Source: an uncultured Bacteroidota bacterium (GTDB lineage: Bacteria > Bacteroidota > Bacteroidia > Chitinophagales > Chitinophagaceae). Taken from it: a stretch of DNA of 64,000 nucleotides. Positions 2,468 to 58,510 of the stretch are shown here, piece after piece. Both the position numbers and the translations under genes were made by a program. The stretch is taken from the NCBI GenBank assembly GCA_903903635.1, contig CAIUZK010000223.1, positions 1 through 64,000 of the forward strand, written 5' to 3'. Under the pieces are notes generated by a model that was not told the DNA's origin, searched no databases, and saw nothing but the letters and a program-made list of their open reading frames with translations. Numbering within the stretch: the stretch's first letter is position 1; the number at the start of each line of letters is the position of its first letter.

Positions 2468-4009
2468 ATGATCAAAAAACTCACTCCTTACTACCCGGGA
2501 ATACTGCTTTTCATTCTTGCTATGATCCTTGGACTTGTTGTTTTCAGGGACTATGGTATAGCATGGGATGAGTCGATGCAGCGGCACACCGGCGAGGTTA
2601 GCCTTAATTACATATTGCATGCCGACAATGGTTTGTTCAGTTACCGCGACCGTCATTACGGTGTCGGATTTGAATTGCCACTGATTATGCTCGAAAAAGT
2701 CCTGCACATCAAAGACCCCGGAAACGCTTACTTAATGCGGCACCTGGTGTCTCACCTGTTCTTCCTGGTCAGTGCCTTTTGTTGTTACCTGCTAGCCCTG
2801 CGGCTCTTTAAAAACCAATTCATTGCCTGCATCGGTTTCCTGATCTATGCCTTTGCCCCACGCATCTATGCGCACTCTTTTTTCAATAGTAAGGATGTAC
2901 CCTACCTGGCCATGTTCATGATCGTATTTGCCATTAGCCAGTATACCTTCGAAAAAAACAAAAAGTGGCTTTATATAATTCTCGGCCTGGCCTGTGGCTA
3001 TACCACCAGCCTCCGCATAATGGGGGTAATACTTGATGGCTTTATTTTGTTTTTCCTGGGTATCGACCTCCTTACAGCCATGTTGCAAAAAGAAAAGATC
3101 AAACAACCTATTGTCAACATATTACTATTTGGCGCTTCGTTTTTTATTATGCTCTACGCCTGCTGGCCCTACCTGTGGACAAATCCGGTTGAAAATTTCA
3201 TAATATCCTACAAGAGAATGTCGCATTTCGACTGGCCATTCACTGTACTGATCAGTGGAAAACAAGTACCGGGAACTGAACTTTCCTGGACCTATTTCCC
3301 CACCTGGTTCCTCATTACCAACCCGATATTGTGGCTTATCACGGGATTTGCCGGTATTATCCTGGCCATAATCAGTTTTTTAAAGAAACCCCTTGCTTAT
3401 CTTAGAAATACCCAGGATCGTAATTTCCTGCTTTACCTTCTTTCCTTCGGCATCCCAATTCTTGCCGTTATATTCCTTCATGCCGTTATTTACGACGACT
3501 GGCGACACCTGTATTTTGTTTATGCCCCATTCGTAATGCTGCTGCTCTGTTTCATCAACTATGTCCGCAATACCAGGTTTAAAATAATTATTGAGATTGC
3601 CTGCTTGTTACAAATCGGTTTAATTGTATTCTTTATGGTACGCAACCATCCCTATCAACAGGTTTACTTCAACGAACTCGTATCGCATCAAAATGAATCG
3701 CTACGCAAAAATTACGAATTGGATTATTGGGGCTGCACCAATAAACAGGCTTTGGAATATTTGGTTGCTAAGCACCCTGAAGGATCAATTTTGGTGAGTG
3801 GTTCTGCCGTAGGAGAATACCTCATCCGGTTCAATACGCAGTTGCTAAAAGAAAAAGACAGGGTACGTATCGAAATCACCACCCCGGAAAGGGCTGATTA
3901 TTTTATCAGCAACTTCAGATGGCATCCTGAAGATTATCCCTATCCGCAAAAAGAATATTCCATCTCAGTGCTTAACAGTACTATACTTTGTATTTATAAA
4001 ACACATTGA
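2468..4009 (+). CDS. GT39-family (ArnT/PMT-like) membrane glycosyltransferase
   Basis: A 513-residue integral membrane protein with an N-terminal helix (about 9-27), then the short motif 'GIAWDESMQRHTG' in the first extracytoplasmic loop. An Asp-Glu pair at this place is typical of PMT_2/ArnT-type (GT39/GT83) enzymes, which move a sugar from a polyprenyl-phosphate donor to lipid, glycan or protein. About ten further hydrophobic helices follow. A short soluble C-terminal domain (about 400-513) has no motif I recognise. It diverges from the TMTC-like gene and converges on the lipoprotein gene 45 bases downstream. The first ATG is used; a plausible alternative is not visible. Substrate and acceptor cannot be inferred from sequence. 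Confidence 0.7.
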   Translation: MIKKLTPYYPGILLFILAMILGLVVFRDYGIAWDESMQRHTGEVSLNYILHADNGLFSYRDRHYGVGFELPLIMLEKVLHIKDPGNAYLMRHLVSHLFFLVSAFCCYLLALRLFKNQFIACIGFLIYAFAPRIYAHSFFNSKDVPYLAMFMIVFAISQYTFEKNKKWLYIILGLACGYTTSLRIMGVILDGFILFFLGIDLLTAMLQKEKIKQPIVNILLFGASFFIMLYACWPYLWTNPVENFIISYKRMSHFDWPFTVLISGKQVPGTELSWTYFPTWFLITNPILWLITGFAGIILAIISFLKKPLAYLRNTQDRNFLLYLLSFGIPILAVIFLHAVIYDDWRHLYFVYAPFVMLLLCFINYVRNTRFKIIIEIACLLQIGLIVFFMVRNHPYQQVYFNELVSHQNESLRKNYELDYWGCTNKQALEYLVAKHPEGSILVSGSAVGEYLIRFNTQLLKEKDRVRIEITTPERADYFISNFRWHPEDYPYPQKEYSISVLNSTILCIYKTH

Positions 4010-7810: not shown

Positions 7811-7900
7811 TCGCACGCTTCTATTATCCGGTTGTGAATTATGGGCATAGGGCTTGTAAGGAAATAAAGGTTGCTTTTTGACGTAGTTATTTTTCTTTTA

Positions 7901-8028
7901 TTAACTGCCGTAGCTTTAGCGAAGGCAAGTTATTAACTGCCGTAGCTTTAGCGAAGGCATGTTATTAACTGCCATAGCTTTAGCAAAGGCATGTTATTAA
8001 CTGCCGTAGCTTTAGCGAAGGCATGTTT
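7901..8028. repeat. Four tandem 32-bp modules inside copy A
   Basis: Units begin at 7901, 7933, 7965 and 7997, an exact 32-base period. Each carries 'CTGCCGTAGCTTTAGCGAAG' followed by GCA, with one or two substitutions in unit three. The unit is itself a spaced palindrome (GCC..GCT..AGC..GGC), so it could form a short hairpin or be a protein-binding site. Confidence 0.85.
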
Positions 8029-8126
8029 TGCAAGGCATGCCCGCAAGGGCACGAGCGCAACTCTATCTGCGAATAATGAACTGTTTTAAGACTTTTATAA
8101 CGAAATAAAAATGGGATAGAACGAGT

Positions 8127-8222
8127 AAGATGGTGTACTTTATTTAATCATCGTCACTAAGATGGCGGAAGTTATTTTGCCATCGTTCCTAAGATGGTGG
8201 GAGTTATTTTCTTCGTTCCTTA
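8127..8222. repeat. Right terminus of copy A repeated three times, 32-bp period
   Basis: Units start at 8127, 8159 and 8191 with AAGATGG and end with the TCGTCACT, CATCGTTCCT and TTCGTTCCTTA variants. The last unit is closest to the termini of the other copies; the first is the most diverged. Confidence 0.75.
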
Positions 8223-28384: not shown

Positions 28385-28582
28385 CCTTAGGAACGTTGAT
28401 GAAATAAGTTCCACCATATTGCGAAGTTATATTTCTTTTATTAACTGCCATAGCTTTAGCGAAGGCATGTTTTGTGAGGCGTAAAATCTGCGAATAATGA
28501 ATTATTTTAAGACTTTTACAACGAAATAAAAATGGAATAGAACAAGTAAGATGGTGGGAGTTATTTCGTCATCGTTCCTTAC
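28385..28582. repeat. MITE-like inverted-repeat element, copy B
   Basis: The ends are imperfect 28-bp inverted repeats. The left end GGAACGTTGATGAAATAA starts at 28390 and the right end closes with CGTTCC at 28578; 24 of 28 positions pair. TTA flanks both ends in the same orientation. Inside is a single 32-bp module with 'CTGCCATAGCTTTAGCGAAG' (from 28441), then the shared core 'TCTGCGAATAATGAA' and 'ACGAAATAAAAATGG'. It sits exactly between convergent kdsC and the small lipoprotein gene, whose TAA stop (28579-28581) is made by the element's right edge. As RNA, the ends could pair and act as a bidirectional 3'-end structure. Confidence 0.8.
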
Positions 28583-29450: not shown

Positions 29451-32400
29451 CTATTGTTCAACAACCATGTGGAATACTTTATTATCCGTCAATGAACGTA
29501 GGTTAACTATATACATTCCATTAGCGAGGTTATTACCCAGTATTACTCTTTCATTGATCTCACCGTTATGTGTAGTAACGTTGGTATGATATACAACCTG
29601 TCCAACAATGTCGGTAATTTCCAGAATCAATGATTCATCATTGCCGGCAGCGAACTTACCACTTAGTATAAATTGGCCCTTGTTAGGGTTTGGAGCCAGC
29701 CTGATCTCGCCTCCTGTATTTACCACAGGTTGTACACCAACATTAGCTGATTGAACAATTACCTTGCTTATCGCAGTTTGCAATCCGCATGTGCTGTTAA
29801 CGCCTGCATAGCACGAAACTTCCTGTCCGTCGATAAGAGTAGCTGCCAGGTAGGTTGCATTGGTTGCTCCAGGTACAGGAGCGCCGTTTACCAGCCACTG
29901 ATACGTTGGAGCAAGACCACCTGCTGAAACCGTAGCTGTAAAGGTGGTATTGTAAACATTTGGCCCTACACTGGTACCATATGCAACATCAATTGAAACG
30001 GCAGGGGCAATTACATTCTGTACATCCATTGTCTTATAATTACTGATTGCAGTAGCAGTAACAAGACAAGGATAATTGCTTGTCAGTCTGCAGTAAACAA
30101 CATCATTATTTGATGGAGCGTAAGTATACGTTGATCCTGTTGCTACCATACCGCTGTTGATAAACCATGTATATACTGGCGCATTGCCGCCGTTTACAGA
30201 ACTGGCTGTAAAGTTAACAAGTGTACCTGTACATACCGTATCACCAGGCAGCGCTACTATCGCTACATCAGGAGTCAGATTATCCCTTACCATCATGGTA
30301 ATTGTATATACTGCGGTATCAGGAGAAGGACAAGCCTCACTGCTGGTAAGCTTAACCTTAACGTCGTCGCCGTTTACAGGCATATAGGTATAGTTGGCTC
30401 CCGATCCCACTGCCAGACCATTGATTGTCCAGGAATAGGACGGAGAAGTACCGCCATGTGTGCTTATCGCACTGTAAGTAACAGATGTACCATAGCAAAC
30501 CGTATCGCCAAGGCTGGATACAACTGTAACATCAGGAATAACAGTTGGGATAACATTTATTGTTACAGTTCCTGTCATATTGCTGCTGCATCCTGTTGCG
30601 GTATCAGTAGCTACCACGCTATACGTTGCCGCAGCAGTCTGTAGTCCAAATGTAATTGCAGCGCCATTACCATGAACCGGGCTGCCGGTAGCAGTAAGCG
30701 GAGAAGAAGTGTACAATTGATAACTTATGCCGGTGTTTGAACCAATAAGGCCGATAGCAATACCAGAGCCACCGGAGCAATAATTACCGCCTCCTGTAAG
30801 CGCATATGCTGAAGGCAATGTATTTACTGTAACATTTGCACTGCCTGCCATTGTATCCTTACAACCTGTAGTTGCGTTTGTTGCTACTACAAAATAAGCG
30901 CCTGCAGTGGTCTGCAATCCGAAATTCAATCCAAGACCAGTACCCGGTACAGCACCACCAATCGATGATGTATTGTACAACTGGTAGTTTATTCCTGTAT
31001 TAGATCCCGAAAGTGTAACAGTTACTCCTGTTCCACCTGCGCAATAACTACCGCCTCCGTTTGTATTGTAAACTACTGGAAGAGAATTAATGGATACAGT
31101 TGCTGAACCGGTCATATTACTTGTACAACCGGTAGCATTATTCGTTGCTACTACTGTGTAGATACCAGCAAGTATCTGTGGCCCGAAATGTAGAAGTGAA
31201 CCTGTACCTGCAACCGGACTGCCGATTAATGCAGAGTTGTGATACAACTGATAGCTGACACCTGTTTCAGATAATGAAACTGTTACATCCACACCAGTTG
31301 AACCCGAGCAGTAACTTCCGCCACCTGCAACAGAATAAACTATTGGAAGCGGATCAACACTGATGGATACACTGGATGTCATATTTGAAGTACAACCTGT
31401 TGATGGATTTGTTGCAATCACGGTATAAATGCCGGATACTGTCTGTAATCCAAAATTAATCGAACCGCCGGTTCCTGCTACTGCACTGCCCAGCGCTACC
31501 CCACCTCTGTATAATCTGTAATTTATACCGGTAGCTGAACCACTAAGTCCCACGTTAAGACCAGTTCCGCCATTGCAATAATTACCGCCTCCGGTAACAG
31601 TAAACTGAGCCGGCAAAGGATTTATGCTGATAACTGCAGAACTTGTCATGGTATTACTGCAACCTGTTGTCGCATTAACTGCGCCAACTGTATAGGTTCC
31701 TACCATACTCTGAACTCCCATATCAAGTGCAAAACCAGTACCGGCGATTGTACCCATTACCACAGGAGTATCATTATGATATAACTGGTAATTTACGCCT
31801 GATTCAGAACCATTAAGCATTACATGAACACCGGGAGCGCCGCTGCAATATCCGCCGCCGCCTGAAACTGCGAATGTAAGTGGCAATGCATTGATTGCAA
31901 CTGTTGCCGTTGATCCCATATTGCTGCTGCAAGATGTAGCAGGATCAGTAGCGACTACTGAATAAGCGCCTGCTGCTGTAAGAAGACCAAAATCAAGTCC
32001 TGTTCCACTACCGCCTAATGCTGCACCTGAAACGACCGTACCATTGTATAACTGGTAATTGATTGAATGGTCTGAACCACTCAGGAAGATATGTACTCCT
32101 GTACCACCAACGCAATAACCACCACCACCGGTAACTGTATAAACAACCGGCGTTGCATTGATTGTTATTGTAGCGCTGCCTGTCATTGTATTCGTACAAC
32201 CTGTTCCTGCATTAATTGCAACTACAGTATAGTTTCCCGCCAGCGATTGAACACCAAAATCAATTGCTGTTCCTGTACCCGCCATTGCAGCGCCTATTGC
32301 AGTTGTACCATTGTAAAGCTGATAATTATAGCCAAACTGTGAACCTGAAAGACCAACATGCAACGTACTTGCAAGTGCAGAGCAATAACTACCGCCACCG

Positions 32401-35400
32401 GTTACATTAAAGGCCACAGGCAATGAATTGATAACGATACTTGCTGAACCTGTCATAGTGCTGGTACATCCGGTAAGGTCGTCTGAAGCAACTACGGTAT
32501 AAGTACCTGCTGAGGTCTGTATTCCAAAGTCAAGAGCTATGCCTGTTCCTCCAACCAAACCACCTATTGCAAGTGTACCACGATACAACTGGTAGCTGAT
32601 ACCAGTTGACGAATTGCTAAGTCCAACAGACAAGCCTGAACCGCCTGCGCAATAGCTTCCGCCTCCTGTTACTGTATATACTGCAGGAAGTGCGTTCTGG
32701 GTAACAGATACGCTTCCTGTCATATTCATGGTACATGCCGTAGCCGAATTGATGGCTACTACTGTATAAGTACCGCTAATTGACTGAACACCGAAATCAA
32801 GTAAAGAACCTGTACCGGTAAGTGGACTGCCAACCAAAGTAGTACCTCTGTATAATTGATAATTAATACCTGAATTAGATCCGCTTAAGCCAACATTCAC
32901 CCCTGTACCGCCGGCGCAATAGCTACCACCACCGGTTACAGTGTAAGTACCAGGTAATGGATTAACAGATACTACTGCACTGCCAGCCATATTGCTTACA
33001 CAAGATGAAGGATTTGTTGCAACCACGGTATAAGTACCTGCTATATTCTGCAATCCGAAATCAAGTGATGAACCTGTACCTGTAACAGGGCTGCCTGCAG
33101 TAAGTGTACCGCTATATAACTGATAAGATACACCTAGTTCAGAATTAGAAAGTCCGATATGAACTCCAGTGCCACCTGCGCAATATGCACCACCACCGCT
33201 AACACTATAAACAATTGGCAGGGATGTAATTACCACTGATGTGCTGCTGGTCATATTAGCAGTACAACCACTTGTATTATCTGTAGCCACTACTGTATAA
33301 CTACCTGCCGACGTCATTAATCCGAAGTCAAGGCCTGTTGTAGTACCCGCTAATGAGGTAACCGGTACCAAACCATTATACAACTGATAAGTAACTCCGC
33401 CTTGTGAACCGGTCAATAAAACATGAACCCCGGTGCCTCCGGCACAATAATTACCACCACCATATACTGTATACACACTCGGGGTGGCATTTATAGATAC
33501 TGATACACTGCCGGTCATATTATTGGTGCAACCCGAAGTTGCATCTGTAGCAACTACTGTGTATACACCTGACAATACCTGAAATCCAAAATCAATTGAT
33601 GATCCTGTTCCTGCTATTACTGATCCTACTGCTGTAGGTCCGACATATAACTGATAGTTCACGCCTGTAGTTGAATTATTCAAACCAACATGTACACCTG
33701 TTCCACCGGCACAGTAGCTGCCGCCACCGGTTACATTATACAGTGTTGGCAATGCATTTACATTTATTACAGCGCTTCCAGCCATATTGCTGGTGCATAA
33801 TGTAGTTGAATTGGTAGCTACTACAGTATAAGTACCTGCGAGGAACCTGAAGCCAAAATCAAGTGGCAATCCTGTACCGGCAATTGCTGCACCCGAAAGA
33901 CCTGCGCCATTATATAACTGATAACTGTTACCCACAACCGAACCGTTCAGTCCGATATGCACACCTGTACCACCGGCACAGTATGCGCCACCACCCGTTA
34001 CATTATTAACCGTTGGTAACGCTGTAATAGTTACAGTAGCGCTGCCCGACATGGTATTTGTACATAATGTAGTTGCGTTGGTAGCAATAACTGTGTAAGA
34101 ACCTGCTGCTGTCTTTAAACCAAAGTCAATAGCAGCTCCGGTACCAGGAACAAATGCACCTGAAAGTGACAGCCCGATATACAACTGGTAATTAACACCA
34201 ACTGTTGAACTGCTTAGACCAATATGAACTCCTGTACCACCGGCACAATAGCTGCCGCCTCCGGTAACATTTTGAACAAGAGGCAATGGATTTGCAGTTA
34301 TTACTGCACCACCCGTCATATTAAAGGTACATAATGTCGCTGCGTTTGTAGCTTGTATGGTATATGTACCGGCTGTAAAGAAGCCGAAATCAAGAGCCGC
34401 GCCTGTTCCTGCAATAACAGGAGAAACAGCTAAGCCAGCCTTGAATACCTGGTAATTAATACCCAGATCAGAATTTGCCAGACCTACATGCAACCCTGCC
34501 CCACCTGCACAATAACTGCCGGTGCCTGTAACAGCATATGCTGTTGGTAATGGGTTAGATGTGATCAACGCGCTTCCAAGCATATTAACAGAACAAGTAG
34601 TTAGCGAATTCTGCGCAAAGGCAGTATAGGTTCCCGGAGTGGTAACCAGACCTGAACTAAGCGGCAAACCGGTACCAGGTAAAGTACCTATTGTACCTGT
34701 ACCAACCAGCACAAGTGAGTAATTGATGCCTATATCCGAACCGCTTAAGCTATCTATACTTCCTGCACCACCTGCACAGAATGAACCACCACCATAGATT
34801 GTATATACATTAGGCAATGGATTAATAGCAAGCGATACCGTGCCGGTCATAGTGCTGCTGCACGTTGTAGCTATATTAGTACCTGCAACCGTATATGCTG
34901 CGACTCCTGCTCCACTGCGTGTACCAAATGTAATTGGTAACCCTGTACCTGCAACCGGAGCCCCTGAAGGAACACCGAAATACATCAACTGGTAATTTAC
35001 ACCTGTTTGCGTATTGCTTAAGTTAAAGGTTGGAGGAGTAGATCCTAAACAATAGGAAACTGCTGTTGATGATAAAACGTAAGTATTGGTTGGCAATGGA
35101 TTAGATGTAATACTTACAGTACCCGACATCGTTGTTGTACAACCGGTAATTGTATTCAATGCAGTAACTGTATATGCACCTAATGTACTTTGCAAACCGA
35201 AACTGATAGCTGATCCTGTACCGGCAACAGTAACAATTGATGTTGCTCCTTGTTTCAGCGTATAATTGATGAACAGGTCAGAATTGCTCAGACCGATGGC
35301 AACTGAGCCGCCGGGACAAACACCACCACCTCCGTTAATTGTATATAAGGTTGGTAATGGATTTATTACAACAGTAGCCGTACCGGTCATAGCCTGAGTA

Positions 35401-38400
35401 CAACCTGTAGATGCATTGGTTGCAATAACGGTATAAACACCTGCTGCTACCTGAGCACCAAAGCTAATAGCATTGCCTGTAATACCTGCAACTGGTGTAC
35501 CCACGGCAACACCTCCCAGATATAACTGGTAGTTTACACCGGTTGTCGAATTACTGAGACCTACAGTAACACCTGTAGTTCCGGCACAATAACTACCCGA
35601 ACCAACCCAGGTTACGGTATAGGCTGTTGGTAGTACATTAATACCAACAGTTGCGCTGGCATTCATCTGTACATTACATCCGGTAGCAGCATTGATGGCT
35701 ACCACTGTATATACACCGGCACCGGTAAAAAGTCCAAAATTAATTGCTGCTCCTGTTCCTGCCCATGGAGTACCGTAGGTATTAGTTATTACACCATTAT
35801 TATAATAAACCTGGTAATTGATACCAATAGTAGAATTGCTTAATCCGATTGCAACACCCGAACCACCTGCACAATAGTTGCCTCCTCCTGTTACTGAATA
35901 GATAACAGGTAATGCATTAACAGTTACTGGCATCGTAGCAATACATGCTGTAGGCAACGTATAAGTAAATGTAGTAGTACCTGCTGCCACACCGGTAATG
36001 ATCCCGGATGCACTTCCTATGATTGCGCTGGCCACATTACTGCTGCTCCATACACCACCAGCGGTAGCGTCGGTCAGAGTGCTTGTTGCGGCAACACAAA
36101 CCGTAGAGAATCCTGCTATGGCCGCCGGTAATGGATTAACTGTTAAAGGATAAGTTACATTGCAACCAGCAGGAAGCGTATAGGTAATGGTTATTGCGCC
36201 TGCCGAAATACCTGTAACTACCCCGGTCAATAAACCGACTGTACCTATTCCGATATTTGAACTGGTCCATGAACCTCCTATACTTGGGTTAATTAATGTA
36301 GCGGTTGATGCAACGCAAACATTGCTTACACCTGTAATCGGTGAAGGAGTCTGGTTAACTGTAAATAATCTAAGTGAAGTACAACCACCTGGCATAGTGT
36401 AGGTAATTGTAACAGCGCCTGCGGTAATGCCGGACACCACTCCTGTCAGAGCCCCGACAGTTGCTACCGATGTATTGCTGCTGGTCCATGTTCCGCCTGC
36501 TGTTATATCAGCCAGCGTTGTGGTAAAGCCGGTACAAACTGATCCAGCTCCTGTAATTGCTGCAGGCTGGGTATTCACGGTCATTGGCAGAATAGCGGTA
36601 CATCCTGCTGGTAAAGTATAGGTAATAACTACATTACCTGCTGCTACACCGGTAACAACTCCAGATGCTGCATTTACAGTTGCCAAAGTAAGATCGCTGC
36701 TGCTCCATGTGCCGCCGGAGGTTGCATCAGCCAGTGCTGTTGTTAATCCTGTACATACTGTATTTGCGCCTGTTATGGCTGCAGGTGTCGGATTAACAGT
36801 TATTGCCGAAGATATGATACAACCTGTTGGTAATGTATAGGTAATGTTTGGATTACCTGCTGCAACACCGGTAACAACTCCTGTTCCCGCATTAACTGTT
36901 GCGAGAAGCGTATTGCTGCTGCTCCATGTTCCGCCGCCTGGTGTAGATCCTAATGCAGTGGTAAGACCAACACATAAGTTCAATGTCCCGGTGATGGCCG
37001 ATGGTAACGCATTAACAGTAAATGGCAAAGTATTGATACAACCTGTTGCTAGCGTATAAGTAATAGTGATATTACCTGCACTCACACCGGTTACTACCCC
37101 ACCCACTGATATAGAACCAATGGCAGTGTTGCTCGAACTCCATGTTCCTGCAGGTGTTGCATCAGTAAGGGCTGTGTTTAAGCCCACGCAAACATTATTC
37201 GCTCCTGAAATTGATACAGGATTGGGATTAACTGTTATTGCGTATGTTGTCAGGCAACCTCCAGGCAAAGTATAGGTAATATTAAGTGTACCTGCTGAAA
37301 CACCGGTTACAACACCGGTACCTGCAATTACTGTTGCCAGAGCCCCATTGCTGCTGGTCCATACACCACCGGTGATCGTATTTCCAAGATTTGTAGTAAG
37401 ACCTATGCAAACATTATTTACTCCTGTTATAGCCGCAGGAATAGGATTAACAACGAAACTGGTTGTAGTATAACAACCGGTTGGCAATGTATAAGTAATG
37501 GTTAGTGTACCTGCTGAAACGCCGGTTACAACACCCGTAAGCGCTATTACCGTTGCAAATGATGGATTGCTGCTGCTCCATGTACCACCTGGATTTGCAT
37601 CTGCAAGCGTTACCGAAGAACCAACACACACACTTGCAGTACCTGTTATAGCTGCAGGTAATGGATTAACTGTAATGGTAGAAATTACAAAACAACCATT
37701 TACAGTATAAGTAATAACAGGACTTCCTGCGGCAACACCGCTAACCAGACCGGTTGCTGCATTTACTGTAGCAACTGAGCTATTGCTGCTGGTCCATGAA
37801 CCTCCTGCAGTTGTACTGCTTAATAATGTAGTCTGCCCCGGACAAACTGTTGTTGTTCCGGTAATTGCGGCAGGCGTATTATTCACTGTAACCTGGGCTG
37901 TTGCAAGACAGCCGGTAGGTAATGTATAAGTCATTGTAGGTGTACCTGCATTTACTCCGGCAACAATTCCGGTAGCCGCTCCTATTGTAGCTTCACCAAC
38001 ATTGCTGCTTGCCCATGTACCGCCGCTTGAAGCATCAGTCAATGCCAGAGTGCTACCGGTACAAACCGGGCCTGCGCCGATAATTGCTGATGGATTAGGA
38101 TTAACTGTAACTATTGTGGTAGCTACGCAACCTGTAGGTAATGTATAACTTATTACAGATGTACCTGCTGAAACCCCTGTCACAACTCCTGATGCTGCAT
38201 TTACTGTAGCTGCTGCTGTATTAACACTGGTCCAGGTTCCTGTTGGAGAAGCGCTGGCCAATGTTGTTGTAAGTCCAGGACAAACACTGGCTGTACCTGT
38301 TATTGCTCCAGGCAAAGGATTAACAACAACTATTGCGCTGCCGCCCATAGTATTTGTACAAGTTGTTGCGGTGGTGGTGGCTATTACTGTATAAGTGCCC

Positions 38401-41400
38401 GCCGAAGTTCTGAGCCCGAAACTGATGGCCCCACCGGTACCGGTCACCGGGCTACCTGATGCAACGCCGCCTAAATACAATTGATAAGTGTTGCCGATAT
38501 CAGAATTGGCCATGCCTATAACAACTCCCGTACCACCTGCACAATAAGATCCGCCACCGGTAACTGCATAAACAGTTGGCAGTGGATTAACCGTAATAAT
38601 GGCACTGCCTGTCATGTTAGAGGCACATAATGTTGTTGTATTCGTACCTATAACTGTGTAAGTTCCTGCGGTTGTCTGCGCACCCATATCGAGTGTAACA
38701 AATGTACCGGCTACAGGCGCTCCTGTGGCAACACCGCCCAGATATAACTGGTAGCTGATACCTCCCGCAGAGTTGGAAAGCATAACATGTATTCCGGTAC
38801 CACCTGCGCAATAACCCCCTGTTCCGGTAACTGTATAGGCTACAGGATAAGGATAAACTGTGAATGAAGATGTATTGCCTGAAGATAGAGCGCTTGAACA
38901 ACCAAAGTTATTGGTGATCTGAGTAACTGTTACCGTAGTAGCGCCGGAATTGGCTAGTAAACCGGATGGTATTGTGAAAGTACCTGATCCGCCACCACCC
39001 ATGGTAAGTGTAGCGGTACTTGCGGATGCAGAATTTGCTCCGCTTAAATTATAAATTACTGTAAATGTTCCTGCTCCAAGGCTGGCTGAGGTAATGGTAA
39101 CTGTTGATGCAATACTGGTACATTGCGAAGTTGCGGAAGTTGCAAATGAAGCAATATTCGGAACTGCGTTTACAGTAATCGGATAGGTTGCTGTACAACC
39201 TGCCGGTAATGTATATATAATAGAAGGATTACCTGATGATACACCAGTAACAACTCCTGTAGCTGCATTAACTGTAGCTCTGCCCACATCGCTGCTGCTC
39301 CATGTACCACCGCTTGTTACATCACTAAGTGTAACGTTAGATCCCACGCATACGACATTGGTACCTGTAATTGCCGCTGGTGTAGGATTAACCGTAAATG
39401 GCTGAACAGAGAAACAACCTGCCGGTAAGGTATAAGACAAATTAAGTGTACCTGCAGTGATACCGGTAACAAGACCGCCTACTGATATTGTTGCTGTTGC
39501 AGGATTACTGCTGCTCCATGTACCACCAATAGTGGGATCAGTTAGAGAAGTGGTAAGTCCGACACAAACACCGCTGGCGCCGACAATTGCACTTGGCTGC
39601 GGATTAACTGTTATTGCTTTGGTAGCATTACAACCTGCCGGTAATGTATAAATAATATTGGTAGAACCTGCCGCGACACCTGTTACCAGCCCGCTGACAG
39701 CATTAACCAATGCTGTGCCCGGAGCAGCGCTGCTCCATGTACCGCCGGTTACTGAATTGGCAAATAAAGTAGTCAGCGTAGCACATACTGAAGTTGCGCC
39801 TGTAATAGCTGCAGGAGAAGGATTAACTGTAAATGGTGCAGAAACCGCACAACCTGTTGGAAGTGTAAATGTGATTGTAATAACTCCAGCCGACAAACCG
39901 GTAACTAAACCTGTTGCCGCGCCCACAGTTGCATAAGTCGGATTGCTGCTGGTCCAGGTTGAAGCGCCTGATGCATCTGTTACTGTTGCAGTAAGGCCAA
40001 CGCAGACATTGGTTGCGCCACCTATTGATAATGGTAACGGATTAACAGTAATCGGGGTACTTACAAAACAGCTGGTAGGCATGGTATATAATATATTAGG
40101 ATTACCATTCGATACACCCGAAACAATACCTGTCAATGCGCCAACCGTTGCCTGAGCAGGATTACTGGTCGTCCAGGTACCACCTGCAGTTGCATCACTT
40201 AGTGTAGTTGTTGAACCAACGCAGACTGTAGTTGTTCCTGTTGTAACTGCAGGTGTCAGATTAACGGTATAAATAACCGATGCCAGACATCCTGTTGCCA
40301 ATGTATAGGAAATGGTAGCGTTACCAGGAGCAACTCCGGTAACCACACCGCTACCTGCTCCTACTGTCGCTACTGTCGGGTTACTTGTGCTCCAGGTACC
40401 CAATAATGTTGCATCGGTCAACGTTGTGGTAAACCCGGTACATACAGTTGCAGTACCAAGTATGGAAGCAGGATTAGGATTAACAGTAACAATTGCTGTT
40501 GCAATACATCCTGTGGGTAATGTGTAGGTAATTGTTGAATTGCCCGGACCTGCACCAACTGCATTAACGGTTCCTGTTAATGCGCCTACCGTAGCCACAG
40601 CAGGTGTACTGCTGCTCCATGTTCCCAGTGGCGTTGCATCAGCAAGCGTAGAGTTAAGACCTGAGCAAATAGCCAGTGTACCGGATATTGCAGCAGGTAA
40701 CGGATTAACTACAACCGTAGCTGTATTGAAACAACCTGTTGCAGGTATAGTATAAGTAATAACCGGGCTTCCTGCTCCTACACCGGTAAGAACACCTGAA
40801 CCTGCAATAATTGAGGCAAAAGCAGTATTGCTGCTGGTCCAGACTCCCGTTCCGGGAAGATATGCATCCGTTAAAGTAATATTGGAACCTACGCAAACCG
40901 GACCGGGAACACCTATTGCCGCAGGTGTTTGGCTTACAGTAACTGTGGCCGTAATGGCACAACCTGTAGGTAATGTATAAGTGATAACTGTAGTTCCGGG
41001 AGTTAATGCATTCACCAGACCTGATCCCGCGTTAATGGTAGCAACCCCGGGAGATGCGCTGCTCCATGTGCCCCCCGGGTTGGCATTAGAAAGTGTGGTA
41101 GTCAATCCTGTACAAACTGATAGCGATCCTGAGATGGCAACTGGTAATGGATTAACTGTAACAATACCGGTAGCTGAAGAAATACATCCGTTGGTATTGG
41201 TAACCTGCAATGATGCAGTATAAGTACCTGGTGCAGCATAAGTATGAATTGGATTATTACCTGCGGCAGTAATTGCATCACCGAAATTCCAGGCATAAGC
41301 CGTAATACCGGCAGATGCATTATTAAATGTTGTTGCTATACCTATACAGAACGGATTTGGAGTAGCTGTAAATGCGGCGCTTGATTGTGCATTTACTGTT

Positions 41401-44400
41401 ACTGTTTGTGTAGTATAATTACCCGGAGTCAGACCACTCGCTGTTCCCTGATAAGTAATAGTAGTGGTTCCTGCTGTTAATCCGGCTACTACTCCTGTTG
41501 TTGCGCCAACTGTTGCTATAGCAGGATTATTGCTGGTCCATGTCCCACCGATAGCGGCCTCACTTAAAGTTGAAGTTGGACCATTCTGGCAAACTACAAA
41601 TGTGCCAGTGATTGGTTGCAATGGATCATTCCGTAATACAGAAATTGAGGCAGAACTTTTGTTGGAAACCACTATATCAGCCTTACCATCACCATCCAGG
41701 TCCCCTACTGCCGAAACGTATTCGTTTGGCGTAGTGCCGCCTGCAGCGGCGAAATTTACTGCGTTAGCAAAAGAACCAGCATTAATCGTACCACTTGTGG
41801 CTGTATTTCTGAAAACAAAAATACTTCCACCATTTGAGTTGGTGCTGATTACATCTGGCTTACCATCACCATCTATATCGCCAATTCCTATATTAAAAAA
41901 TGGATTGGAAGAAGTACCATAGTCAACACGTGCAGCAAGTGAACCAGCGACGAATGGAACACCGGAGGTGGCAGTATTACGGAAAACAGAAAAATTGTTT
42001 GCTCCGTTATTTGCAACTACAACATCCAGTTTACTATCACCATCAATATCAGCAAACCTCATTCCTACCGGACTTGTACCTGCGCCAAAGTTTACTGCAG
42101 AAGCCAGTGTACCGGCATTGATCGTTCCAATAGTTGAAGTATTACGTAACAGGGATATGTTATTTGAATTACGGTTAGAAACCCCAATATCTGGCTTCCC
42201 GTCTCCATCTATATCTCCGAATGCAAGGCCTTCAGGGTTAGTGCCTGCTGTGAAGTTTACAGCCGAATTAAAGGATGATCCGTTAATCACACCTGGAACT
42301 GAAACATTCTGAAGTACGGAAATATTATTCGAACTGAAATTACAGGTTATCAATTCAGGCTTGCCATCTCCGTCTACATCTCCTATTATTACATTTGTCG
42401 GTGCGCTTGCACCAATAGAAATATCCACATTTGCACTGAAGGATATTGTACCGGGTGTACTCGTATTGCGCAACACGGAAACAGTGGTTGTACCGGAATT
42501 TGCAGTAGCAACATCCAGTTTGCCATCACCATCTACATCACCAATGGCAAGGCCAATAGGGCTTGAACCTGTAGCAAAAGAAACTCCGGCACTAAATGAA
42601 CCTGAAGTCAACGATCCAGATGAACTAATGTTTCTGAAAACAGTAATTGTATTTGATCCGTTATTTACTACCACAATGTCTGATTTTCCATCTCCATCTA
42701 TATCTCCTAATGCAACATCCCAAGGGCTACTGCCGGTTGTCATTGTAAATTGAGGATCGAAGTTTACAGTATTAGCGATGTAAGCGCCATTACTGTAATT
42801 CTGCAAATAGGTTCCGGTTGAAGCTGCCTGTAAACCACAGGTTGCATTCTCAACTGTTACCGGGCCAAACACAGACCCCACTGGCACAGATACTGTCAAC
42901 GAAGTTGCAGAAGCTGTATTTACGGTAGCGCGTGTAGCACCAAACCATACTACATCATTAGTAGTGGTAGTATTAAAATTGGTACCTGTAATAGTTACCG
43001 AAGAAGTAGGGAAGCCGACTAATGGAGATATATTGGTAACTGTAGGAGTTGCCGTAACCGTTACCGATGAAACTACTACTTGAGATGTTCCTGCTGTTGT
43101 AAAGGTAATATTTGCCGTACCACCTTCCAGGATGCCGGTAACAACGCCGGTGCCGGCCACAACGCTTGCAATAGTGGGAGCGCTGGAAGACCATGTACCA
43201 CCGCCTGCAAACGAATTACTTAAAGTAGTAGTTAAACCAGGGCAAACGGTTAGTGTGCCTGTATTGGGGAGTAATGGATTGTTATGGAAAACAGAAACAA
43301 TATTGGAATTAAAACTGGTAACCGCCATCTCTGGTTTACCATCTCCATCCAGATCACCTATAGCTACCGTAACTGGCGACGAGCCGGTGGTAAAACCTAC
43401 AGCATTTGCAAATGATCCTGCAGCTATTGTGCCGCTCGTTGCTGTATTCCTAAATACGGATACCGTATTGCTACCCCTGTTGGTGCATGCAATATCAGGC
43501 TTGCCATCACCATCAACATCTCCGACTGATACCCACCAGGGGTTAGTACCAGCAATAAATTCCACATGGGAATTCATGGCCGGAAAGGTATTATTACGTA
43601 TCACAGATACATTTGACGAGCCCTGATTTGCTGTAATAATATCCAGTTTGCCATCTCCGTCAATATCAGCTAATGCTACTCCATATGGAGTTGTTCCGGT
43701 AGCAAAATCAACCTTGGCAGCAAATGATATTGCACCCGGTGACGAAGCGTTAACCAGCACGGAAACACTGTTCATTCCAAAATTCATGTTTGAACAAACT
43801 GCATCTGGTAACCCATCTCCGTTCATGTCGCCCAGAGCCACTCCAATCGATCCGCCGGCAATTGCGAATGTTCCAACAGACCCGAATGAAATGCTTCCGG
43901 CTGAAGATGTATTTCTGTATGTATATAAAAAAGCCGATGCGACATTGGTAACTGCCAGATCCGCTTTTCCATCTCCATCTAAATCCTGGATGGCAATGCC
44001 ATAAGGAACACCGCCTGGCGTAAGTACAATTTGCGGTGCTAATGAAATAGTACCAGGTGTGGATGTATTGCGAAAAACCGAAACGGAACCACTTCCCTGG
44101 TTGGAAACAGCTAAATCAGGCTTACCATCACCATCAATATCACTAAACGCAATCTGCGTTGGGTTTGTTCCGGTAGTAAATGATACAGGAGCGGCAAATG
44201 AACCAGCAGTAATAGAGCCGGAAGCACTGGTATTCTTATAAATAAAAATAGAACTTGAATTATAACTGGCAACTACTAAATCTGCCTTGCCATCTCCATC
44301 CACGTCAACTAAAGAAACGCCTTCAGCACCATTCAGGCCTCCGTTAAAATCAACCTTTGCATCAAAGTTCACTGTATTGGGGGCATAGGATGCATTATTG

Positions 44401-45965
44401 TAAGTTGGCAGGAAGAATTTGGTAGCTGCATTACTTATTAAGGCACAAGTGCTATTCTCAACGGTCACCGGATAAAACGTCGCATCAGCAGGTACATTAA
44501 CGCTAAGCGACGTGGCAGATGCCGAAGTAACAGCAGCGCGTGTAGCACCGAAATAAACTATGTTATTCCCGGCTGTAGTATTAAAATTAGTACCTGTAAT
44601 TGTCACAGGCGCAAATGGATTAGCAGCATTCGGACTAACTAGTGTAATGGTTGGTGTGGGGTTTACAACAACATTGATAGTTGTAGTTACACTTATAATA
44701 CCATCTGAAACCTGTACTGTAAAGGCATCTGCTCCGATATAACCTGCTGTGGGTGTAAATGTTGTGAAAGCAGGAGATATGTTGGTGCCGCCTGCCGCGC
44801 TCTGTGGTAATCCACCAATAGTTCCATGAGATGGTCCTGATGTAACCGTCCAGTTAAAGGTGGAGCCGATTGTACCTGTTGCAGTAAGCAATGAACTAAT
44901 TGAATTCGTAGAACTAATACAAACCGAAAGGGATTGAGGACTTCCATTATTAAAAGCAAGGCAACCATTACTAACTTCCGCGCCTATGCTTTGAGTAGTA
45001 CCAGCGGCATCATACTTCCTGGCACGATACCAATCAACAACCATATTCCCTGTTCCAGAACATAAAGAACCCAATACGAGCTGCTGATTTGTGGTAGGAT
45101 GAGATAAAAAACCAGCAGTATTGCTTCCACCTGGCCAAGAAGTGATTAGTTGTGTTGCAGTCCTTACCATACTCCAAGTACCTGCTCCACCTAAGGCTCC
45201 AACCCCGTTTAGTGTCATATCATAAAATGCGCAATTCGAAAGGGTGCTACCCACATACATAGTCCCACCACCAAACGACAATGCATTTCCATTAGCTGTT
45301 CCATTATCAACCTGCCCGATATTCGGCCAGTTGCCTGTAGCTGAATTCACTTTTGCCTCACTTGTAATAGGAAAAGCAAAAGAAGAATTAGAAACAATAT
45401 CAACCTCAGATGTTGAACTGAATGATGCTGTACCGCCCCCTATTACTAGACTTCCACCACCATTATGCAATGTCCATTTTGCACCGTCTAAAGCAACACC
45501 ATTAAAATCATCGAAAAACAGGAATGTAGCATTACCATCTGAAGCCGCAGCAGCAACAGGGTTTCCATAATATAGGTAAATAGTGGTTGTTGTACTCGGT
45601 GCAATACTGTTTACATTGATCCAGATAACAGTGGTGGCGGTGTTCATTCCGCTTTCTATCCAGTATGGCAGGTTGGTACAGCTGGCATCAGCAAACCTGA
45701 TATCATTGCCTGATGCCTGCATCTTACCTGCACCTACTAGTGCAGCAGTATTTAATGTTATGGAAACCTGGTAGTTTGAAAGCGTAGAAGCTCCAAGGTT
45801 CGTTACAGTAACCGGCACAGAATGCACCCAGCTACAATTACAAGAAGCCCATGAGGGAATGCTTAATAACAATATCCCAAATAAAAGAACCGCCTTCTTA
45901 AAACTAAGTCCGCCCATTTTTTTTACAATTTGCTGCATTTGGAAGGATAGATTTCCTGATCTCAT
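29451..45965 (-). CDS. Giant T9SS-exported repeat protein (predicted surface adhesin)
   Basis: 5504 residues, uninterrupted. Signal region 1-41 (hydrophobic 'AVLLFGILLLSIPSWAS'). A DUF2341-like domain (about 44-150, 'LPYWIESGMNTATTVIW', 'TTTIYLYYGNP') and a concanavalin-like stretch (about 150-330) follow. Then come two copies of the same module: IPT/TIG domain ('VTITGTNFNTT'), seven FG-GAP repeats ('GDIDGDGKPDI'), and a BIG_2-like domain (residues ~435-970 and ~970-1520). A PKD-like domain is near 1525-1590 ('AYAWNFGD'). After it lie nine BIG_2-like repeats, an odd domain (2265-2372), two 'GGGSYC' repeats, 11 BIG_2-like repeats, 20 'GGGSYC' repeats (about 3350-5135), three Ig-like domains, and a type A T9SS C-terminal domain ('LAPNPNKGQFILSG' to 'FHMVVEQ'). 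This suits a long stalk with integrin-like propellers at its far end. M10 and M17 are alternative starts. Confidence 0.88.
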   Translation of the reverse strand: MRSGNLSFQMQQIVKKMGGLSFKKAVLLFGILLLSIPSWASCNCSWVHSVPVTVTNLGASTLSNYQVSITLNTAALVGAGKMQASGNDIRFADASCTNLPYWIESGMNTATTVIWINVNSIAPSTTTTIYLYYGNPVAAAASDGNATFLFFDDFNGVALDGAKWTLHNGGGSLVIGGGTASFSSTSEVDIVSNSSFAFPITSEAKVNSATGNWPNIGQVDNGTANGNALSFGGGTMYVGSTLSNCAFYDMTLNGVGALGGAGTWSMVRTATQLITSWPGGSNTAGFLSHPTTNQQLVLGSLCSGTGNMVVDWYRARKYDAAGTTQSIGAEVSNGCLAFNNGSPQSLSVCISSTNSISSLLTATGTIGSTFNWTVTSGPSHGTIGGLPQSAAGGTNISPAFTTFTPTAGYIGADAFTVQVSDGIISVTTTINVVVNPTPTITLVSPNAANPFAPVTITGTNFNTTAGNNIVYFGATRAAVTSASATSLSVNVPADATFYPVTVENSTCALISNAATKFFLPTYNNASYAPNTVNFDAKVDFNGGLNGAEGVSLVDVDGDGKADLVVASYNSSSIFIYKNTSASGSITAGSFAAPVSFTTGTNPTQIAFSDIDGDGKPDLAVSNQGSGSVSVFRNTSTPGTISLAPQIVLTPGGVPYGIAIQDLDGDGKADLAVTNVASAFLYTYRNTSSAGSISFGSVGTFAIAGGSIGVALGDMNGDGLPDAVCSNMNFGMNSVSVLVNASSPGAISFAAKVDFATGTTPYGVALADIDGDGKLDIITANQGSSNVSVIRNNTFPAMNSHVEFIAGTNPWWVSVGDVDGDGKPDIACTNRGSNTVSVFRNTATSGTIAAGSFANAVGFTTGSSPVTVAIGDLDGDGKPEMAVTSFNSNIVSVFHNNPLLPNTGTLTVCPGLTTTLSNSFAGGGTWSSSAPTIASVVAGTGVVTGILEGGTANITFTTAGTSQVVVSSVTVTATPTVTNISPLVGFPTSSVTITGTNFNTTTTNDVVWFGATRATVNTASATSLTVSVPVGSVFGPVTVENATCGLQAASTGTYLQNYSNGAYIANTVNFDPQFTMTTGSSPWDVALGDIDGDGKSDIVVVNNGSNTITVFRNISSSGSLTSGSFSAGVSFATGSSPIGLAIGDVDGDGKLDVATANSGTTTVSVLRNTSTPGTISFSANVDISIGASAPTNVIIGDVDGDGKPELITCNFSSNNISVLQNVSVPGVINGSSFNSAVNFTAGTNPEGLAFGDIDGDGKPDIGVSNRNSNNISLLRNTSTIGTINAGTLASAVNFGAGTSPVGMRFADIDGDSKLDVVVANNGANNFSVFRNTATSGVPFVAGSLAARVDYGTSSNPFFNIGIGDIDGDGKPDVISTNSNGGSIFVFRNTATSGTINAGSFANAVNFAAAGGTTPNEYVSAVGDLDGDGKADIVVSNKSSASISVLRNDPLQPITGTFVVCQNGPTSTLSEAAIGGTWTSNNPAIATVGATTGVVAGLTAGTTTITYQGTASGLTPGNYTTQTVTVNAQSSAAFTATPNPFCIGIATTFNNASAGITAYAWNFGDAITAAGNNPIHTYAAPGTYTASLQVTNTNGCISSATGIVTVNPLPVAISGSLSVCTGLTTTLSNANPGGTWSSASPGVATINAGSGLVNALTPGTTVITYTLPTGCAITATVTVSQTPAAIGVPGPVCVGSNITLTDAYLPGTGVWTSSNTAFASIIAGSGVLTGVGAGSPVITYTIPATGCFNTATVVVNPLPAAISGTLAICSGLNSTLADATPLGTWSSSTPAVATVGALTGTVNAVGAGPGNSTITYTLPTGCIATAIVTVNPNPASILGTATVCTGFTTTLTDATLLGTWSTSNPTVATVGAGSGVVTGVAPGNATISYTLATGCLASVIYTVNLTPAVTTGTTTVCVGSTTTLSDATAGGTWTTSNPAQATVGALTGIVSGVSNGNPNILYTMPTSCFVSTPITVNPLPLSIGGATNVCVGLTATVTDASGASTWTSSNPTYATVGAATGLVTGLSAGVITITFTLPTGCAVSAPFTVNPSPAAITGATSVCATLTTLFANSVTGGTWSSAAPGTALVNAVSGLVTGVAAGSTNIIYTLPAGCNATKAITVNPQPSAIVGASGVCVGLTTSLTDPTIGGTWSSSNPATATISVGGLVTGITAGTLNLSYTLPAGCFSVQPFTVNPTPAAITGTNVVCVGSNVTLSDVTSGGTWSSSDVGRATVNAATGVVTGVSSGNPSIIYTLPAGCTATYPITVNAVPNIASFATSATSQCTSIASTVTITSASLGAGTFTVIYNLSGANSASASTATLTMGGGGSGTFTIPSGLLANSGATTVTVTQITNNFGCSSALSSGNTSSFTVYPYPVAYTVTGTGGYCAGGTGIHVMLSNSAGGISYQLYLGGVATGAPVAGTFVTLDMGAQTTAGTYTVIGTNTTTLCASNMTGSAIITVNPLPTVYAVTGGGSYCAGGTGVVIGMANSDIGNTYQLYLGGVASGSPVTGTGGAISFGLRTSAGTYTVIATTTATTCTNTMGGSAIVVVNPLPGAITGTASVCPGLTTTLASASPTGTWTSVNTAAATVNAASGVVTGVSAGTSVISYTLPTGCVATTIVTVNPNPSAIIGAGPVCTGSTLALTDASSGGTWASSNVGEATIGAATGIVAGVNAGTPTMTYTLPTGCLATAQVTVNNTPAAITGTTTVCPGQTTLLSSTTAGGSWTSSNSSVATVNAATGLVSGVAAGSPVITYTVNGCFVISTITVNPLPAAITGTASVCVGSSVTLADANPGGTWSSSNPSFATVIALTGVVTGVSAGTLTITYTLPTGCYTTTSFVVNPIPAAITGVNNVCIGLTTNLGNTITGGVWTSSNGALATVIAGTGVVTGVSAGTLNITYTLPGGCLTTYAITVNPNPVSISGANNVCVGLNTALTDATPAGTWSSSNTAIGSISVGGVVTGVSAGNITITYTLATGCINTLPFTVNALPSAITGTLNLCVGLTTALGSTPGGGTWSSSNTLLATVNAGTGVVTGVAAGNPNITYTLPTGCIISSAITVNPTPAAITGANTVCTGLTTALADATSGGTWSSSDLTLATVNAASGVVTGVAAGNVVITYTLPAGCTAILPMTVNTQPAAITGAGSVCTGFTTTLADITAGGTWTSSNTSVATVGALTGVVSGITAGAVTITYTMPGGCTSLRLFTVNQTPSPITGVSNVCVASTATLINPSIGGSWTSSNIGIGTVGLLTGVVTGISAGAITITYTLPAGCNVTYPLTVNPLPAAIAGFSTVCVAATSTLTDATAGGVWSSSNVASAIIGSASGIITGVAAGTTTFTYTLPTACIATMPVTVNALPVIYSVTGGGNYCAGGSGVAIGLSNSTIGINYQVYYNNGVITNTYGTPWAGTGAAINFGLFTGAGVYTVVAINAATGCNVQMNASATVGINVLPTAYTVTWVGSGSYCAGTTGVTVGLSNSTTGVNYQLYLGGVAVGTPVAGITGNAISFGAQVAAGVYTVIATNASTGCTQAMTGTATVVINPLPTLYTINGGGGVCPGGSVAIGLSNSDLFINYTLKQGATSIVTVAGTGSAISFGLQSTLGAYTVTALNTITGCTTTMSGTVSITSNPLPTNTYVLSSTAVSYCLGSTPPTFNLSNTQTGVNYQLMYFGVPSGAPVAGTGLPITFGTRSGAGVAAYTVAGTNIATTCSSTMTGTVSLAINPLPNVYTIYGGGSFCAGGAGSIDSLSGSDIGINYSLVLVGTGTIGTLPGTGLPLSSGLVTTPGTYTAFAQNSLTTCSVNMLGSALITSNPLPTAYAVTGTGSYCAGGAGLHVGLANSDLGINYQVFKAGLAVSPVIAGTGAALDFGFFTAGTYTIQATNAATLCTFNMTGGAVITANPLPLVQNVTGGGSYCAGGTGVHIGLSSSTVGVNYQLYIGLSLSGAFVPGTGAAIDFGLKTAAGSYTVIATNATTLCTNTMSGSATVTITALPTVNNVTGGGAYCAGGTGVHIGLNGSVVGNSYQLYNGAGLSGAAIAGTGLPLDFGFRFLAGTYTVVATNSTTLCTSNMAGSAVINVNALPTLYNVTGGGSYCAGGTGVHVGLNNSTTGVNYQLYVGPTAVGSVIAGTGSSIDFGFQVLSGVYTVVATDATSGCTNNMTGSVSVSINATPSVYTVYGGGNYCAGGTGVHVLLTGSQGGVTYQLYNGLVPVTSLAGTTTGLDFGLMTSAGSYTVVATDNTSGCTANMTSSTSVVITSLPIVYSVSGGGAYCAGGTGVHIGLSNSELGVSYQLYSGTLTAGSPVTGTGSSLDFGLQNIAGTYTVVATNPSSCVSNMAGSAVVSVNPLPGTYTVTGGGSYCAGGTGVNVGLSGSNSGINYQLYRGTTLVGSPLTGTGSLLDFGVQSISGTYTVVAINSATACTMNMTGSVSVTQNALPAVYTVTGGGSYCAGGSGLSVGLSNSSTGISYQLYRGTLAIGGLVGGTGIALDFGIQTSAGTYTVVASDDLTGCTSTMTGSASIVINSLPVAFNVTGGGSYCSALASTLHVGLSGSQFGYNYQLYNGTTAIGAAMAGTGTAIDFGVQSLAGNYTVVAINAGTGCTNTMTGSATITINATPVVYTVTGGGGYCVGGTGVHIFLSGSDHSINYQLYNGTVVSGAALGGSGTGLDFGLLTAAGAYSVVATDPATSCSSNMGSTATVAINALPLTFAVSGGGGYCSGAPGVHVMLNGSESGVNYQLYHNDTPVVMGTIAGTGFALDMGVQSMVGTYTVGAVNATTGCSNTMTSSAVISINPLPAQFTVTGGGNYCNGGTGLNVGLSGSATGINYRLYRGGVALGSAVAGTGGSINFGLQTVSGIYTVIATNPSTGCTSNMTSSVSISVDPLPIVYSVAGGGSYCSGSTGVDVTVSLSETGVSYQLYHNSALIGSPVAGTGSLLHFGPQILAGIYTVVATNNATGCTSNMTGSATVSINSLPVVYNTNGGGSYCAGGTGVTVTLSGSNTGINYQLYNTSSIGGAVPGTGLGLNFGLQTTAGAYFVVATNATTGCKDTMAGSANVTVNTLPSAYALTGGGNYCSGGSGIAIGLIGSNTGISYQLYTSSPLTATGSPVHGNGAAITFGLQTAAATYSVVATDTATGCSSNMTGTVTINVIPTVIPDVTVVSSLGDTVCYGTSVTYSAISTHGGTSPSYSWTINGLAVGSGANYTYMPVNGDDVKVKLTSSEACPSPDTAVYTITMMVRDNLTPDVAIVALPGDTVCTGTLVNFTASSVNGGNAPVYTWFINSGMVATGSTYTYAPSNNDVVYCRLTSNYPCLVTATAISNYKTMDVQNVIAPAVSIDVAYGTSVGPNVYNTTFTATVSAGGLAPTYQWLVNGAPVPGATNATYLAATLIDGQEVSCYAGVNSTCGLQTAISKVIVQSANVGVQPVVNTGGEIRLAPNPNKGQFILSGKFAAGNDESLILEITDIVGQVVYHTNVTTHNGEINERVILGNNLANGMYIVNLRSLTDNKVFHMVVEQ
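30550..35910 (-). repeat. Array of 20 tandem ~268-bp units coding the 'GGGSYC' repeat
   Basis: In the protein each unit reads roughly 'YTVTGGGSYCAGGTGVHVGL', then 'NYQLY', a 'GTG' turn, 'DFGLQT.AGTYTVVATN', 'C...MTGSATV', 'NPLP'. I count 20 here and two more at 38330-38850. Units differ enough at the DNA level to keep the array from being identical repeats, though the pattern is unmistakable. Confidence 0.85.
35920..38310 (-). repeat. Array of 11 tandem ~217-bp BIG_2-like units
   Basis: Units encode 'ITGT..VC.G.TTTL.DAT' then 'GGTWSSSN..ATV', 'TGVVTGV.AG...ITYTLP.GC'. This is the central block of the giant protein. Confidence 0.83.
39180..41150 (-). repeat. Array of 9 tandem ~219-bp BIG_2-like units
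   Basis: Same unit as the 35920-38310 array. Two further single BIG_2-like copies follow each FG-GAP block, giving 22 in the protein by my count. Confidence 0.82.
41640..42740 (-). repeat. Second block of seven FG-GAP/VCBS units
   Basis: Seven calcium-loop motifs of the form D-x-DGDGK-x-D occur at ~155-bp spacing (one reads 'DIDGDSKLD'). Seven blades make one full FG-GAP beta-propeller. Confidence 0.8.
43270..44340 (-). repeat. First block of seven FG-GAP/VCBS units
   Basis: Seven motifs such as 'DVDGDGKADLVV' and 'DMNGDGLPDAV'. With the upstream IPT/TIG domain this block duplicates the module at 41.6-43.0 kb. Confidence 0.8.
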
Positions 45966-49993: not shown

Positions 49994-50605
49994 CTACTTC
50001 GGAGTTTCATCCTTAGGCTTTTCTCCCTCTTTGGGGGTCTCTCCTCCCTTAGGCTTCTCTCCTTCTTTTGGTTTTTCATCTTCCTTGGGTTTTTCACCTT
50101 CTTTTGGTTTTTCACCTTCCTTGGGTTTTTCACCTTCCTTGGGTTTTTCACCTTCTTTGGGTTTTTCAACCTCCTTAGGGGTTTCAGGTTCCTTGGCTTT
50201 TACCTCTTCCTTAGGCTTTACTTCTTCCTGTGGCCTGGCTTCCTCCTCCGATTTATGCTTCTTCTCCTCAATGGCCTTATCATTACCCCGTTGCTTTGCA
50301 CTTCTCTCCTTTTCTGCCATCTTCCTGTGCCTGGCGGCCAGTTTCTTATCCGATTTGGTCACTTTGTTTGGATTCAGATGGTGCTTGCTGATTCTCTTCT
50401 GTTCCCGCTTTGATTTCAGGTAAAACTCATGATGGCCCCGGTTGACATACCTGTTATGCTCCCGTTTTTTATAACCTATCATGTGGATGCGGTACAGAAT
50501 ATTCCGCTTCTCCTTCTTTTTATGCTTTTCCTTCGAAAAACCAGACATAGGACTCCCGATAGTAAACAGTACTAATGCAATCAGAATGGCTATGTATCTT
50601 TTCAT
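49994..50605 (-). CDS. Secreted Lys/Glu/Pro-rich protein with EKPKEG repeats
   Basis: 203 residues. Signal peptide 1-24 ('LVLFTIGSPMSGFSK'). A strongly basic middle part (about 25-110) contains 'YKKREHNRYVNRGHHEFYLK'. From about 125 to the end the sequence is low-complexity, with a near-perfect hexapeptide 'EKPKEG' repeated about nine times. Such extended charged Pro-rich stretches act as periplasmic spacers, for example in TonB-like proteins, but no TonB fold or membrane anchor is present. Function unknown. The ORF-track plus-strand frame across this region is a shadow of the repeats. Confidence 0.55.
   Translation of the reverse strand: MKRYIAILIALVLFTIGSPMSGFSKEKHKKKEKRNILYRIHMIGYKKREHNRYVNRGHHEFYLKSKREQKRISKHHLNPNKVTKSDKKLAARHRKMAEKERSAKQRGNDKAIEEKKHKSEEEARPQEEVKPKEEVKAKEPETPKEVEKPKEGEKPKEGEKPKEGEKPKEGEKPKEDEKPKEGEKPKGGETPKEGEKPKDETPK
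50010..50180 (-). repeat. 18-bp tandem repeats coding EKPKEG
   Basis: On the plus strand the unit is close to CTTCTTTGGGTTTTTCAC, repeated about nine times with scattered substitutions. It lies at the 3' end of the 203-codon gene. Confidence 0.75.
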
Positions 50606-58345: not shown

Positions 58346-58510
58346 CCTTAGGAACGTTGACGAAATAAGTTCCATCATATTGCGAAGTTATATTTTTTTT
58401 TATGAGGCGTAAAATCTGCGAATAATGAATTATTTAAAGACTTTTGCAACGAAATAAAAATGAGATAGAACGAGTAAGATGGTGGGAGTTATTTCATCAT
58501 CGTTCCTTAT
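58346..58510. repeat. MITE-like inverted-repeat element, copy C (no internal module)
   Basis: GGAACGTTGACGAAATAAG at 58351 and its partner ending CGTTCC at 58506 pair at 23 of 28 positions; TTA again flanks both ends. The shared core 'TCTGCGAATAATGAA' and 'ACGAAATAAAAATG' is present, but the 32-bp module found in copies A and B is missing, and the sequence runs straight from the T-rich stretch into TGAGGCG. It lies between the divergent sigma and TMTC-like genes. Its left flank GTTCCTTA looks like the end of another copy. Confidence 0.8.

Follow-up and report, generated by a model that had tools for sequence, protein, structure and literature searches.

The window, by which is meant the whole stretch of 64,000 nucleotides analysed here, contains three copies (A, B and C) of a short repeated element, within which a 32-bp module occurs n times. 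The features concerned are:

7850..8219, forward strand: copy A, 370 bp, with a class-3 left end, four modules, a GC-hairpin variant and a triple right end
7850..7899, forward strand: left arm of copy A, terminal inverted repeat (TIR) class 3 (GGGCTTGTAAGGAAATAAAGG...CTTTT)
7900..7931, forward strand: module unit 1, GTAG variant
7932..7963, forward strand: module unit 2, GTAG variant
7964..7995, forward strand: module unit 3, ATAG...GCAAAG variant
7996..8027, forward strand: module unit 4, GTAG variant
8028..8125, forward strand: interior of copy A, comprising a GC-hairpin module (GCATGCCCGCAAGGGCACGAGCGCAACTCTATCTGCG), an AT hairpin and the 3' half of the inner stem
8126..8219, forward strand: three tandem right ends of copy A (class 2, class 1 variant, class 1) at a 32-bp period with TAA between them
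28390..28578, forward strand: copy B, 189 bp, class 1 ends, n=1, TTA target duplication
28440..28471, forward strand: the single module of copy B
58351..58506, forward strand: copy C, 156 bp, class 1 ends, n=0, TTA target duplication

The original prediction for this DNA had counted four modules in copy A, one in copy B and none in copy C, and these counts hold, in an exact common register. The four units of copy A do form an array at an exact 32-base period (TRF score 239, 94% matches, no indels), which is located at 7900-8027 rather than at 7901-8028 as first placed. The 3-mers flanking copy A are unequal (ATA and TTA), and its tandem right ends look like the product of end accretion at the target motif. 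Bare single right ends were observed at two other loci (L068 2496 and L122 2477, minus strand). Elsewhere in the window, positions 29451-45965 (minus strand) are occupied by one ORF of 5504 aa, and an imperfect 18-bp tandem array of about 11 units at 50010-50234 overlaps a 203-aa ORF.

The module is a spaced palindrome, as had been proposed, whose hairpin is flanked by ATTAAC and TGTT, with GTAG found inside some of the hairpins only. A 20-mer taken from it has five matches in the window when up to three mismatches are allowed, against 0.00 expected in shuffles, and 114 times at up to two mismatches in the genome as a whole (5.27 Mb in 275 contigs), where the reversed control gave no match. 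The register CTTTT-[ATTAACTGCCRTAGCTTTAGCGAAGGCATGTT]n-TTATGAGG is exact for n=0, 1, 2 and 4.

The anatomy of the element was parsed from 132 genomic regions. The genome houses about 100 copies, mostly of 156-370 bp, each built in the order TWA target duplication, left arm, CTTTT, n 32-bp modules, interior, right arm and target duplication. The interior consists of exchangeable pieces, namely a GC hairpin (adding 23 bp), an AT or CCCGAAAGCTTTCGGG hairpin, and an extra tail. There are at least four diverged end classes in the genome (GGAACG, GTGACG, GGGCTTG and GGCATTG), each pairing a left end with a right end of its own, and AAATAA has an equal offset in all of them; chimaeras that mix classes are few (L124, L135, L152, L156 and copy A). 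The module, the GC hairpin, the inner hairpin and the right-end type co-occur in most of the possible combinations, and such free combination of parts is as expected of recombining modules. The module itself is unchanged across TIR classes whose remaining sequence has diverged.

Several properties mark the element as mobile. Imperfect TIRs of about 33 bp are present in every class, and the flanking 3-mers are equal in 35 of 46 class-1 elements (mean of 5000 shuffles 16.7, maximum 26). The duplicated 3-mers are mostly TTA or TAA, with TCA, ACA and CAA also occurring. With genes taken as simple ORF calls of 90 aa or more, 66 of 68 elements are intergenic; among the same 68 there is no preferred orientation with respect to neighbouring genes, so a role as part of an mRNA is not favoured. 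With its TIRs and target duplication, its shortness, its many intergenic copies and its lack of a transposase gene, the element has the attributes of a MITE. MITEs of the IS5/PIF-Harbinger type have a 3-bp TWA target duplication and TIRs beginning with G. The present element resembles them in both respects, but differs in that no IS5-like transposase with the ends of the element was found in the source genome or in that of the second species described below (G015). PF13359 transposases are absent from both genomes, and neither a search with three transposase families nor inspection of unpaired ends gave a transposase with matching ends. Two PF01609 matches were considered as the mobilising partner and rejected, one being an IS that interrupts an element and the other being without such ends. 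The genome also contains two genes for Y1-type transposases (PF01797 matches), one of them broken by a stop. No matches pointing to a phage, plasmid or viral-contig origin were found.

Some individual elements carry insertions. At L053 (G000:C16:380-1111) the CCCGAAAG hairpin of an element seems to have been invaded by an IS whose transposase ORF (PF01609) is 370 aa long. At L160 908-2502 (minus strand coordinates), class-1 ends surround about 1.6 kb of sequence containing three ORFs (93, 106 and 152 aa); this insert splits the inner hairpin and has borders of its own, inverted CGATTATACC/GGTATAATC. Sequence that looks like domains V-VI, the 3' end, of a group II intron splits an element at L142 (about 2500-2740, minus strand coordinates), and intron-like stretches of a similar kind flank L044 and L218. 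In the second module unit of the element at L156 2049-2127 (minus strand), about 60 extra bases are inserted into the 3' half (TTACCCCAATAAGGCATTGCC...ATAGAA).

The central claim of the original prediction, that the number of modules varies inside a mobile repeat, is borne out, the number being 0, 1, 2 or 4 across the roughly 100 genomic copies. In class 1 there are about 24 elements with n=0 (29 listed, less five reverse-strand or truncated reads), 35 with n=1, 13 with n=2 and one with n=4; three of the 24 or so represent larger internal deletions. Outside the 32-bp module no base distinguishes the n=0 element at L059 from copy B, which has n=1, so the number of modules changes independently of the rest. 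Four further n=0/n=1 pairs lie 1-3 bases apart. When the module is left out of the tree, 10 changes are needed to account for the n=0 state, at least four of them forced by well-supported branches, and its clustering is above chance and far from that of one origin.

It is very improbable that these counts are an artefact of assembling a repeat-rich genome from short reads. Many contigs do end inside elements, as would happen where multicopy sequence interrupts an assembly; but the units differ by diagnostic bases, the copies lie within long contigs with unique flanks and matching target duplications, and a second, separately assembled genome has the same dimorphism. This is G015, the JABDBX MAG, from a second species, in which a fifth end class surrounds the same invariant module. 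Twenty of its 29 parsed elements have n=0 and nine have n=1, with an exact, in-register difference of 32 bp; the closest such pairs are 3-4 bases apart, and no element with n>1 was seen among the 29. A comparison between strains was also attempted: the CAIYJV contig L207 gave partial matches to the genome only, with no orthologous element site.

In three arrays neighbouring units have private variants in common. CTATAG is shared by units 3 and 4 of L042, GTAG is found in three of the four units of copy A, and GGCACG in both units of L150. Shared variants of this kind show what appears to be local duplication in L042, L150 and copy A. Together with the exact tandem period, they would also suit a functionless minisatellite, carried by the MITE, whose 32-bp unit grows and shrinks by slippage. 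Such an origin is conceivable but rather unlikely, given that the module has stayed invariant while the TIR classes diverged elsewhere, that the main polymorphism is between n=0 and n=1, and that the junction favoured by a slippage deletion in G000 would be one of 34 bp (at the TTTTAT repeat), not the 32 bp observed. Since precise loss of 32 bp has little microhomology in G000, we favour for the n=0 allele one or a few origins, probably followed by exchange between copies. The module might instead be a putative protein-binding site, its number tuning the binding, and the palindromic core, the strong conservation and the helical-phase spacing (32 bp is about three helical turns) are in keeping with this. 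The idea is improbable, in that elements with n=0 are as widespread as those with n=1 and there is no candidate protein.

The core of the module also occurs by itself. In the source genome a 20-bp core with other flanks, often with longer stems, was found at L100, L101 (four times), L163 and L221. Close variants are present in five other genomes (G006, G008, G021, G066 and G321), that in G008 lying within the loops that separate the arms of different long inverted repeats. Of 396 genomes sampled across the phylum, only two, the source genome being one, had cores matching a degenerate pattern. The four core palindromes in L101 (1970-2160) have a spacing of 55 bp and lie within AACTTATCAACCTATC-type simple repeats. 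Two findings had been named in advance as fatal to the original prediction, a module that never occurs alone and a number that is the same in all other elements. Both were contradicted, for the core is found outside the element and the number differs among elements.

GTAG- or CGTC-tagged REP sequences are short, dispersed intergenic palindromes, and some REP dimers lie within longer palindromes (PMC3733652). It might be supposed that the module is likewise a small mobile palindrome in its own right, inserted into the element and then excised or lost, the element being merely its main host. The solitary cores here and in other genomes would agree with this, as would the two Y1-type transposase genes, one of them stop-interrupted, and the short TTAT direct repeat that borders the module in G015. 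However, within elements the module always occupies one site, in one orientation and in the 32-bp register, and this holds across five TIR classes in two species. Solo copies are few, dimers of the head-to-head or tail-to-tail kind were not observed, and the GTAG tetramer is internal to the hairpin, not adjacent to it. The module differs from REP sequences in having no external GTAG or CGTC tag, in residing within a TIR element with a target duplication, and in being repeated head to tail only, and there is little probability that it moves by itself in this way. Of the suggestion that a second repeat family is nested in the first, what survives is that the core is dispersed outside the element and belongs to a wider family; that it inserts into these elements by a mobility of its own is not supported. 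Constancy of position, orientation and register in all five classes and both species is consistent with a structural domain integral to the element.

A consensus structure (A1) derived from ten elements of four end classes is one long predicted hairpin, in which the module forms its own 9-pair hairpin near the tip. In A1, 96% of cells are paired and 19 of 60 pairs have double-sided changes; none of 500 shuffles reached as high, and slid structures were 39-52% paired. TIR complementarity, which a transposase needs, would alone give much of the long-hairpin signal, yet the inner helices covary too. The fold also has a strand bias. The module-sense strand is the more stable in 67 of 68 elements, by a mean of 17 kcal/mol, and single folds of copy B show the same asymmetry (z -5.9 versus -2.6). 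At the level of class consensus, arm transitions are wobble-compatible (G-U on the module-sense strand) by 13 to 0, for which the nominal p of 0.0002 is optimistic because the classes are partly homologous; per-element ratios are 198:24, 15:0 and 36:7. Strand-specific C-to-T deamination was considered as the main cause of the wobble bias and rejected, there being no such skew in the polymorphism of G000, where counts are small. Polymorphisms that keep pairs stand to those that break them as 37:14 in G000, and about evenly (26:24) in G015. A search of six representative loci against Rfam gave no family at gathering score.

These predicted folds make it likely, though indirectly, that one strand is kept foldable as RNA, each extra module giving a transcript one more hairpin branch and leaving the main stem undisturbed. 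A bolder proposal would regard the element as a mobile structured RNA, with its module-sense transcript selected to fold, its ends swapped to follow different transposases, and the number of modules tuning the effect of the RNA. The module would then be a conserved active or recognised hairpin, which would explain why it is constant in five end classes and two species. We consider this unlikely.

There are published precedents for such an architecture. The BOX elements found in Streptococcus pneumoniae and S. suis are composites, boxA-boxB(n)-boxC, in which boxB is absent or tandem; in the predicted RNA fold boxB is a nearly independent branch, and S. suis has one boxB that occurs with either of two types of end (PMC3049150). 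Compared by architecture only, the present element is like BOX in having flanking modules around a tandem central module of variable number, zero included. It is unlike BOX in its visible 3-bp TTA/TAA target duplication, in n being mostly 0-2, in its four or more end classes in one genome, and in the occurrence of the core alone. BrickBuilt of Porphyromonas gingivalis is a strictly intergenic MITE with a leader, a tandem internal unit of 23 nt and a tail; its inverted ends are like those of IS5-family elements, and it has long stem-loops, 19 copies and irregular target duplications (PMC4596501). The two share a Bacteroidota host, the make-up of an intergenic MITE with leader, tandem internal unit and tail, IS5-like inverted ends and long stem-loops. 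They differ in the unit, here of 32 bp, and in the ends, here GGAACG/GTGACG/GGCATT/GGGCTT as against the GAGACCTTTGCA type (Table 2 of PMC4596501), and the parts of that account consulted report no pairs of elements identical except for one unit. Variation in module number, which had been thought unusual, is so only in part, given boxB and the 23-nt repeat of BrickBuilt.

The explanation we prefer, with a probability of roughly 0.8, is that the element is a non-autonomous intergenic MITE of BOX-like modular anatomy, whose internal hairpin is gained and lost through recombination between copies together with local tandem duplication. A transposase provided in trans would insert the element by acting on its inverted repeats; recombination or gene conversion between dispersed copies would reshuffle the 0 and 1 states; and values of n above 1 would arise by local tandem duplication, whether through slippage or unequal crossover. 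The element is a new family whose plan has precedents in BOX of the pneumococcus and BrickBuilt of Porphyromonas. Less ordinary are the constant core in five end classes, the pairs identical but for one module, and the strand-biased fold. The plan, mobile ends around a countable hairpin, is here extended to apparently unrelated sequence in environmental Bacteroidota. The 0/1-module twins, the several end classes on one core and the like state of affairs in a second species form an unusually clean natural series, with which it can be asked what purpose the internal module serves, and whether selection acts at the level of DNA or of RNA.
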